A DNA stretch of 46,280 bases from Candidatus Binatota bacterium (GTDB lineage Bacteria > Desulfobacterota > Binatia > UBA1149 > CAITLU01), in NCBI GenBank assembly GCA_024276575.1, contig JAJRWY010000035.1, positions 1 through 46,280 of the forward strand. The letters are read 5' to 3'. The notes beneath the pieces are model-generated. The model saw only the letters and a list, made by a program, of their open reading frames with translations, did no database searches and was not told the origin of the DNA. How positions within the stretch are numbered: position 1 is the stretch's first letter; each line of letters starts with the position of its first letter. Made by a program: the position numbers and the translations under genes. Below are positions 11,974-46,280 of the stretch, piece after piece.

Positions 11974-12090
11974 GACCTCTGCTACGAGCCTAAATGGTTC
12001 GCAATCCCGGCCCGTTTGTCGCTCGCTGGCTCGCGGCTCACCATTTTTCGGTCCTCAACGTAGGCGTAGTACGCCTGCGGGCTAAGCGCT
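11974..12090 (-). repeat. copy of dispersed intergenic repeat family (inverted orientation), copy C
   Basis: Reverse complement contains GCCCGCAGGCGTACTACGCCTACGTTGAGGACCGAAAAA...ACGGGCCGGGATTGCG...GGCTCGTAGC, matching copies at 39201-39297 and 46166-46280. Confidence 0.75.
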
Positions 12091-13930: not shown

Positions 13931-13980
13931 GGCTGGCGCGGAGCAAGATGAGATGGCGGACGATTTCGCATCATGCGTGG

Positions 13981-14004
13981 GTCTCATGAACAACGTCAGC
14001 TAGG
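13981..14004 (+). repeat. degenerate terminal-repeat relic of the dispersed element family, copy E
   Basis: GTCTCATGAACAACGTCAGCTAGG vs GTTTCATGAATAATGTGCGTTAGG at 31738-31761 (18/24 identical, mostly transitions). Confidence 0.4.
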
Positions 14005-31723: not shown

Positions 31724-31761
31724 GGCTCGTAGCAGCAGTTTCATGAATAATGTGCGTTAGG
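31724..31761 (+). repeat. right-end relic of dispersed element: GGCTCGTAGCAGCAGTTTCATGAATAATGTGCGTTAGG, copy D
   Basis: 24-nt terminus 31738-31761 is 22/24 identical to the reverse complement of 46139-46162; starts directly after the secF stop. Confidence 0.75.
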
Positions 31762-39057: not shown

Positions 39058-39190
39058 ATGGCCGTGGGCATTTCCCACACAATCCACCAGCTCCTGGTGA
39101 AAACGGCGCTGTTCCTGTTTGCCGGTGTAGTGGAGAAATCCCGCGACACCGCCAACTTACGCCGCTTCGGTGGCGTCATCGAGTCCGCAG
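39058..39190 (+). pseudogene. inverted, decayed fragment of mrpD-like gene
   Basis: GISHTIHQLLVKTALFLFAGVVEKSRDTANLRRFGGVIE vs intact MrpD GIFYIIHHILVKTALFLIAGAVEKSRGTTNLRRLGGVIE; ~100/117 nt identical by hand alignment to reverse complement of the mrpD region near 40817-40935. Confidence 0.9.
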
Positions 39191-39200
39191 CTTCGACAGA

Positions 39201-39297
39201 CCTCGTCGTGAGAGTTGCAAGTACCCATGAGAGCGGCTCGAGCGCAGCGGGCGAACCTACACGGGCCGGGATTGCGGGCGATTGGGGCTCGTAGCCG
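39201..39297 (+). repeat. copy of dispersed intergenic repeat family, copy B (adjoining the mrpD fragment)
   Basis: CCTCGTCGTGAGAGTTGCAAG...ACGGGCCGGGATTGCGGGCGATTGGGGCTCGTAGCC matches 46163-46280 and the reverse complement of 11981-12022. Confidence 0.8.
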
Positions 39298-39318
39298 GAT
39301 GTTCCCAAAGAATGCCGG

Positions 39319-40424: not shown

Positions 40425-41903
40425 TCAGGGTTCTCCGAGAACAGCGGCGACATACAATTGCGGATTCAAGATCTGCTCGGCTGCAGTCTCTGCATAGGGC
40501 ATTACCACACTCGCGCCCAGTCCCATCGCGACACCCAACAATACCAAGACCGCGATCGAGAGCAGGCGCGCCCGGTTGCCTCCTTCCTCGATGCGCGGCA
40601 GGCCCTCTTCACGCCAGAACACGTAACGAAATATCTTCATCATCGAAAATAAGGTCAGGAAGCTAACCAGCAGGCTCACGGCGACGATGCCGTAGGAGCC
40701 TTGCTGCAAGCCGGCTTGGATCAAGAGCAACTTTGCGATGAATCCGCTCAGCGGCGGAACGCCGGCAAGACCGAGTCCGGCTACCATGAAAAGGCCTGCC
40801 AGCAGGGCTTCGGTCTCGATGACGCCGCCAAGGCGGCGCAAGTTAGTGGTGCCGCGGGATTTCTCCACTGCGCCCGCAATCAGGAACAGCGCCGTTTTCA
40901 CCAGGATATGGTGGATTATGTAGAAGATGCCCCCGGCCAGGGCGACCTGGCTGAACAGTCCGAGCCCCATGATCATATAGCCGATCTGGCTGACGATGTG
41001 GTAGGAGAGTACGCGCTTCATGTCCCACTGCGACAAGGCTCCGATCACGCCGAAGAACATGGTGGCACCGGCTACGAAGACCAACAGCGGCAAGACGAAA
41101 GGTAGATCGGCGAAAAGCAGGCTGACCACCCTGAACAGGGCGTAGACTCCGACCTTGGTCAGCAATCCTCCAAAAAGTCCGCTTATGACCGTAGGCGGAG
41201 CGAAATACGCCCGCGGCAGCCACATGTAGAGCGGAAACAACGCCGCTTTGATCGAAAAGACCAGCATGAAGATGACCGCAACCACTGCTTTGAGGGCGGG
41301 GTCCGGCACTTCCGCCATGCGCACGCTCAACTGCGCGAAATTCAAAGTCCCGGTGAGGCTATAGATGATGGCCACGCCGATCAGAAAAAGGCACGAAGAC
41401 AGTGCGTTGACTACCAGGTACTTGAACGTTTCTTGAAGCTGGTAAGCGCCGCCGCCTAGTGACATCAAGGCGTAAGAGCTTATCAGGAGGACCTCGAACC
41501 ACACGAAGAGGTTGAACAGGTCTCCGGTCAGGAAAGAGCCGTTGACGCCGACCAGTAGGAACTGAAAAAGCGGATAGAAGAACATCCGCTCGCGCGGTTC
41601 GTCCAGAGAGAAACATGCAAAGAGCAGGGTGGCGGTGGAAACCACCATGGTGACCATCACCATCAAGGCTCCGAGCATGTCCACGGTGAATACGATTCCA
41701 AACGGGGCCGGCCAGTTGCCGAACTGCAAGACTTGGATGCCCTGGTCGCGAACGGTGAGCAACAGCTTTGCCGCGGCGGCGAAGGTGACGAGGTTGGCTG
41801 CCATTGCCACGGTGCGTGAAAGCGCGGGCCGGTCTCGCAAGAAAAGCAGGACCACCGCGGATGCCAGCGGGAGTGCTACCGGCAGGATCGGGAGGTTACT
41901 CAT
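40425..41903 (-). CDS. mrpD: Na+/H+ antiporter subunit D
   Basis: 14-TM NuoN/MrpD-like protein; HHILVKTALFLIAGAVEKSRGTTNLRRLGG. Confidence 0.93.
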   Translation of the reverse strand: MSNLPILPVALPLASAVVLLFLRDRPALSRTVAMAANLVTFAAAAKLLLTVRDQGIQVLQFGNWPAPFGIVFTVDMLGALMVMVTMVVSTATLLFACFSLDEPRERMFFYPLFQFLLVGVNGSFLTGDLFNLFVWFEVLLISSYALMSLGGGAYQLQETFKYLVVNALSSCLFLIGVAIIYSLTGTLNFAQLSVRMAEVPDPALKAVVAVIFMLVFSIKAALFPLYMWLPRAYFAPPTVISGLFGGLLTKVGVYALFRVVSLLFADLPFVLPLLVFVAGATMFFGVIGALSQWDMKRVLSYHIVSQIGYMIMGLGLFSQVALAGGIFYIIHHILVKTALFLIAGAVEKSRGTTNLRRLGGVIETEALLAGLFMVAGLGLAGVPPLSGFIAKLLLIQAGLQQGSYGIVAVSLLVSFLTLFSMMKIFRYVFWREEGLPRIEEGGNRARLLSIAVLVLLGVAMGLGASVVMPYAETAAEQILNPQLYVAAVLGEP

Positions 41904-46005: not shown

Positions 46006-46106
46006 AATGGCCTTGCGTCGTTTTGGCGGCTAAGCAGCATGCTGAGGCCGCAAGACACAGACTTTGCCCCTGTTCCGCGCAGGGTCAAACCGGCACCCGG
46101 CGCGGC

Positions 46107-46280
46107 GTTGCGAGAGTCGCAAGCGCCAGTGAGATCGGCCTAACCCGCATTATTCATGAAACCTCGTCGCGAGAGTCGCAAGCGCCCGTGAGATCGGCCC
46201 AAGCGCAGCGATGAGGCCCGCAGGCGTACTAACAGTACGTCGAGGGCCGAAAAGCGAGCACGGGCCGAGATTGCGGGCGA
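46107..46280 (+). repeat. dispersed intergenic element, copy A: tandem 38-nt units, 24-nt terminus, internal hairpin (runs off the window end)
   Basis: GTTGCGAGAGTCGCAAGCGCCAGTGAGATCGGCCTAAC (46107-46144) and GTCGCGAGAGTCGCAAGCGCCCGTGAGATCGGCCCAAG (46166-46203); CCTAACCCGCATTATTCATGAAAC 46139-46162; hairpin CGTACT-AAC-AGTACG. Confidence 0.85.

Follow-up and report, generated by a model that had tools for sequence, protein, structure and literature searches.

A gene-less repeat with a conserved hairpin in a Candidatus Binatota genome is very probably an IS1380-type MITE

The window, a stretch of 46280 bases that makes up one whole contig (G000:C281) of a Candidatus Binatota assembly, ends at an assembly break that falls inside a repetitive element. 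Its last 137 nt are the start of a repeat that runs past the end of the assembly, and this copy (46144-46280) matches 39 other places in the genome at 94-100% identity by blastn. An earlier note on this DNA had described a set of sequence modules, all of which are present in the window, and had arranged them as two tandem units, given as ~38-nt direct repeats with a period of ~59 nt, and a separate CGTACT/AGTACG hairpin. The direct repeats are real, but they are not tandem units. The upstream one (46106-46139) is a fragment of an older copy, and the apparent tandem with its 59-nt period is therefore a nested insertion, a younger copy lying inside the remnant of an older one. The CGTACT/AGTACG stem likewise exists, not as a hairpin of its own but as the apex of a single hairpin that covers the whole element. 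The CTAA at 46140-46143 is target DNA, and the element itself starts with CCCGC at 46144. Table 1 collects the features of this copy together with those of the other sites in the window.

Table 1. Copies, remnants and parts of the element in the 46280-base window. R1 is the covariance model described in the text.
Feature	Position	Strand	Evidence
MITE copy, first 137 of ~174 nt	46144..46280	+	R1 E 9.6e-24, model positions 1-138 of 175; cut off 3' by the contig end
Left terminal inverted repeat (TIR), CCCGCATTATTCATGAAACCTC	46144..46165	+	Same 22 bp as in the TIRs of intact copies
CTAA, left target-site duplication, YTAR type	46140..46143	.	Sequence; YTAR duplications at intact copies
Older-copy fragment, about element positions 22-55	46106..46139	+	D1 repeat family, 92% identical to 46165-46202; no TIR upstream
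Apical portion of the whole-element hairpin, GAGGCCCGCAGGCGTACT-loop-AGTACGTCGAGGGCC	46214..46254	+	Complete-copy fold of -114 kcal/mol, z -14; covarying pairs
Decayed full copy	39184..39318	+	R1 E 9e-7
Decayed copy	11974..12090	-	Inverted-repeat pairs I2 and I3, 84-86% over two segments; not reached by R1
Right-end remnant, AGGCTCGTAGCAGCAGTTTCATGAATAATGTGCG and TTAG kept	31724..31761	+	31737-31761 a 21/25 match to right TIR and target; I6, 92% over 24 nt
Probable right-end remnant with CTAG	13980..14004	+	19/25 match

Recurrences of the modules had also been proposed at 39201-39297, 11974-12090 and 31724-31761, and each of these places holds a decayed copy or a remnant of the element. A further recurrence, suggested with less assurance at 13981-14004, is likely a remnant as well, only 0.02 matches of that quality being expected by chance in the shuffled window. 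Adjoining the decayed copy at 39184 is one half of an inverted duplication from an antiporter gene region, 133 nt long and 85% identical (39059-39191 and 40807-40939).

Across the 4.36-Mb genome, the 16-nt end motif GCATTATTCATGAAAC occurs at 328 sites when up to two mismatches are allowed, 172 of them forward and 156 reverse, whereas the reversed-pattern control found 0 matches in the same sequence. The end is thus present in both orientations, as the earlier note had observed within the window. The covariance model R1 recognises 147 copies among the 150 candidate sites that it scored, which makes 147 a minimum. Of these matches, 44 start within the first two bases of a contig; the element therefore breaks the assembly, and it is a main reason why the assembly is in 321 pieces. 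Intact copies inside contigs consist of CCCGCATTATTCATGAAACCTC, about 130 bp of interior, and then the same 22 bp inverted. Most complete copies fall within 174-206 bp, the commonest type being 174 bp long and others 196-206 bp, and the two 22-bp TIRs of young copies are identical or differ at one position. Intact copies are flanked by 4-bp duplications, namely TTAA/TTAA, CTAG/CTAG, TTAG/TTAG and TTAC/TTAC. The non-palindromic ones (TTAG and TTAC here, CTAA and TTAG in other genomes) match as direct, not inverted, repeats. About half of the scanned TIR pairs show mismatched duplications, which are due partly to decay and partly to mis-pairing by the scanning script.

The repeat is short and multicopy, leaves no room for a transposase gene, and has both 22-bp TIRs and 4-bp direct YTAR target-site duplications. 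Its high copy number, fixed boundaries, target-site duplications and occurrence in both orientations bear out its description as a MITE-like non-autonomous element. Copies are not few, their boundaries are not inconsistent and they are not part of a coding gene, any of which would have spoken against that description; the remaining proviso, that the repeat might be a structured RNA, is partly true in that the element has a conserved, strand-biased fold.

A link to the IS1380 family had been guessed at from a CCTA start. The family holds up, on the evidence of transposase identity (NF033539) and of a TIR and duplication search in plasmid IS1380 elements, but the reason does not, those bases belonging to the target. 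When 98 genomes of that class were scanned with the end motif, a 1710-bp element came to light in the genome G048. It has the same first 17 bp at its end and carries, between its ends, a gene for a 457-aa protein that is an IS1380 transposase (Pfam DDE_Tnp_1_4, 2e-116; NCBIfam IS1380, NF033539, 4.5e-102). Searching the class with this protein found further IS1380 genes. Both ends were readable in G015, G053, G056 and G127, where they were of the CCCG(C/G)ATTATTCA or CCCGCATTTCTCAC type and had YTAR flanks; around several more distant IS1380 genes in the class no such ends were found. One Planctomycetota genome and one Syntrophobacterales genome each have an IS1380 gene with one matching end at a contig edge. 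A test of the family that makes no use of the motif was run on the flanks of four plasmid transposases, two annotated as ISPosp7-like and ISBdi2-like and two annotated only as IS1380 family, which were scanned for inverted repeats of whatever sequence that had a 4-bp direct repeat, likewise unspecified, on their outer sides. In each of the four plasmid elements a CC-starting end of the MITE type adjoins CTAG/CTAG. End type and YTAR duplication are thus common to the MITE and to IS1380 elements, the longest identity between the MITE end and an insertion sequence end that was found being about 17 bp, below the full 22.

The expected transposase gene between matching ends therefore exists in other genomes, but not in the host assembly: Pfam model and protein searches found no IS1380 gene in this 94%-complete assembly. 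An autonomous element with matching TIRs in the host genome, one mark of a MITE, is accordingly missing here, the partner with the same end lying in G048, of the same class. A same-genome autonomous partner is not strictly required of a MITE. Among 25 genomes with the same end motif, just 6 have IS1380 genes, several of these being fragments. Either the IS1380 helper has been lost from the host, leaving its copies stranded, or it lies in a part of the genome left unassembled or unbinned. An IS1380 insertion sequence proper is ruled out, the 174-bp element having no gene, and we file it as a non-autonomous relative. The element was absent from the phages and plasmids searched.

Folding of a complete 174-bp copy gives one hairpin of -114 kcal/mol, an energy 14 standard deviations lower than that of shuffled sequences (z -14). 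Other families of the class have this interior too, at about 70-77% identity and a length of 174-177 bp, and we aligned 14 copies from seven genomes over 62 stem pairs. Two-sided changes occur in 28 of the 62 pairs, while 96.9% of pair cells remain paired; none of 500 shuffles scored as high on any measure, and sliding the partner structures lowers pairing to 29-39%. Internal loops such as the G-A/A-G at alignment columns 71-72 and 108-109 are invariant. R1 was built from this 14-copy alignment; of 143 class genomes searched with it, 17 contain the element. Beyond the class the fold extends to several phyla, R1 matching loci in Nitrospira and in MAGs from the Gammaproteobacteria (L122), Deltaproteobacteria (L140) and Krumholzibacteriia (L196), and more weakly in a Planctomycetota MAG (L148), all of these loci having been left out of the building of R1. 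The interior was also considered as an insertion sequence remnant, and this was rejected, R1 finding nothing inside the autonomous elements (L224-L227, L232, L260 and L261) at E 0.1. There was no Rfam match, either at the gathering score for eight loci or at E <= 1 for the element itself.

Within those stem pairs that are mostly Watson-Crick, G-U occupies 43 cells and A-C 8. Deriving the structure from the opposite strand and disallowing G-U, a procedure biased against the G-U excess, still left G-U ahead of A-C by 27 to 8. The plus strand has the more stable fold in 16 of 16 copies from the class and in 42 of 44 others. A second family of about 161 nt, with the same TIRs, a different interior and a full-length hairpin, was seen at L127, L132, L135, L168 and relatives, in Mariprofundaceae and Wenzhouxiangella. 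This second interior shows the same strand tendency in 10 of 11 copies, orientation being set there by a short motif. All these strand counts are non-independent, copies sharing ancestry, and the bias could come in part from that ancestry or from strand-biased mutation. The G-U excess and the fold stability together speak for selection that acts on one strand of the element itself, as RNA or ssDNA. Relative to genes, the copies are oriented nearly at random (21:16 and 18:15, in a small sample with ORFs called by a simple codon model), and a role as read-through host RNA is therefore unlikely. Relative to replication, judged by GC skew, 22 copies are lagging and 12 leading, which is not significant.

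In some genomes the interior has CCCG(C/G)ATTATTCATGA ends and in others CCCGCATTTCTCACCAG ends, and end types similar to both also bound IS1380 genes. One interior with two TIR types, each of a kind that bounds IS1380 genes, suggests that two or more IS1380 lineages have carried the hairpin. Several variants were noted in the course of this survey. Recent activity is suggested by one genome of the class (G041; L325, L338 and others), which has at least 19 near-identical copies of 178 bp with CCTGCATTTCTCACCAG ends. At L276 (G003:C43, around 1505-1620) a hairpin core lacking TIRs sits between apparent icd and mdh genes and stops about 20 nt upstream of the start codon of mdh; it has possibly been co-opted as a leader. 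At L208:2614-2647, and also at L118, L127 and L179, a perfect 26-bp palindrome, CCCGCATTATTCATGAATAATGCGGG, sits between two CTAG copies and consists of two TIRs overlapped at the self-complementary TTCATGAA. It is either a minimal element or a deletion scar.

We conclude that the repeat is very probably a gene-less IS1380-type MITE of about 174 bp with a conserved hairpin, moved in trans by an IS1380-family transposase. YTAR-like 4-bp targets are duplicated by some IS5 and IS701 elements too, and similar insertions might come from a MITE of a different DDE family, such as the IS5 group or IS701. All transposases found between matching CCCGnATTATTCA ends are nevertheless IS1380 (in a search made by IS1380 similarity only), and both the end type and the CTAG duplication recur in the independent plasmid IS1380 elements, making this origin very unlikely. 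We give equally little weight to a cellular structured RNA or REP-like repeat whose TIR-like ends arose by chance. The cores without TIRs in G003, one of them directly upstream of mdh, would suit such a repeat, as would conservation of the core over class-level divergence; it is at odds with the clean 22-bp ends and direct duplications, the at least 147 copies, the near-random gene orientation, the lack of an Rfam match and the finding of one interior with two different TIR types. That a contig-end repeat should be chimeric or adapter-like is a natural suspicion where many copies lie exactly at contig ends, but complete copies with unique flanks occur inside contigs, which excludes an assembly artefact for practical purposes, and diverged versions are found in relatives from other assemblies.

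The rival that weighs most accepts an IS1380-type MITE and denies that its fold is under selection, the hairpin being a by-product of inverted duplication of an end and of template switching from arm to arm. Whole-element hairpins are known in other MITEs, QMITE2 among them at about -113 (PMC10969869), and arm-to-arm copying would also yield two-sided changes. Such copying should, however, erase internal loops, yet loops such as the G-A/A-G are invariant; and it should treat the two strands alike, yet G-U exceeds A-C on a structure derived against it. We therefore consider a by-product hairpin rather unlikely, though well ahead of the other rivals. In the preferred reading, the IS1380 transposase would bind the CCCGCATTATTCATGA ends of the MITE, excise it and insert it at YTAR sites, duplicating 4 bp; we infer both the mobilisation in trans and the cut-and-paste chemistry. 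Because compensatory changes keep the pairing and wobble pairs favour one strand, the folded single strand, as RNA or as ssDNA during mobility, probably contributes to the spread of the element, a proposal less certain than the rest. A bolder version is tentative and, in our judgement, somewhat more doubtful than not: these may be structured-nucleic-acid transposons, whose conserved plus-strand fold (RNA or ssDNA), maintained by covariation and found in several phyla, is needed for mobility or maintenance and, having moved between two or more TIR types, travels as a module tied to no single IS1380 transposase.

Among known systems, the closest are the IS1380 insertion sequences of the ISPosp7 and ISBdi2 types, which share with the MITE the 4-bp YTAR/CTAG duplication and CCCG..TATTTCA or CCCG..TTATTCRTGA ends. 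They differ in carrying a transposase gene, which the MITE lacks, and its hairpin interior is absent from the insertion sequences searched. ISEcp1 and ISPme1 are better-known members of the family. QMITE2 of Coxiella, ERIC, Correia and Chunjie of Geobacter are likewise short, mostly intergenic and present in tens to hundreds of copies. By their descriptions rather than by their sequences, they are set apart from the present element, which has an identified mobilising family and a fold shown by covariation to be conserved across genomes of the class and beyond. In QMITE2 the whole transcript folds into one structure (PMC10969869). The piggyBac superfamily of eukaryotes similarly has CCC-starting ends and a TTAA-type 4-bp duplication, and IS1380 transposases serve as its outgroup in a published study (PMC10813416). 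By virtue of these resemblances in ends, targets and outgroup status, piggyBac-like chemistry is plausible for an IS1380-type MITE. The two differ in that piggyBac is eukaryotic and strict for TTAA, whereas the MITE targets YTAR in a prokaryotic host.

In the open literature, to which the search extended, the TIR and core sequences had no relevant match and no description of an IS1380-type MITE was found. Provisionally, then, we take a MITE of IS1380 type whose conserved fold is strand-biased to be unreported. MITEs, hairpin MITEs and IS1380 elements are all known, and their combination here is an uncommon variant. The family assignment, by IS1380 ends and YTAR target, covers a gene-less repeat that saturates a genome and fragments its assembly, together with similar repeats of environmental bacteria, Nitrospira included. 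The finding also bears on the old question of whether hairpins, which are common in bacterial MITEs, are by-products or needed; from the covariation and the bias of wobble pairs to one strand, we predict that MITE hairpins matter.
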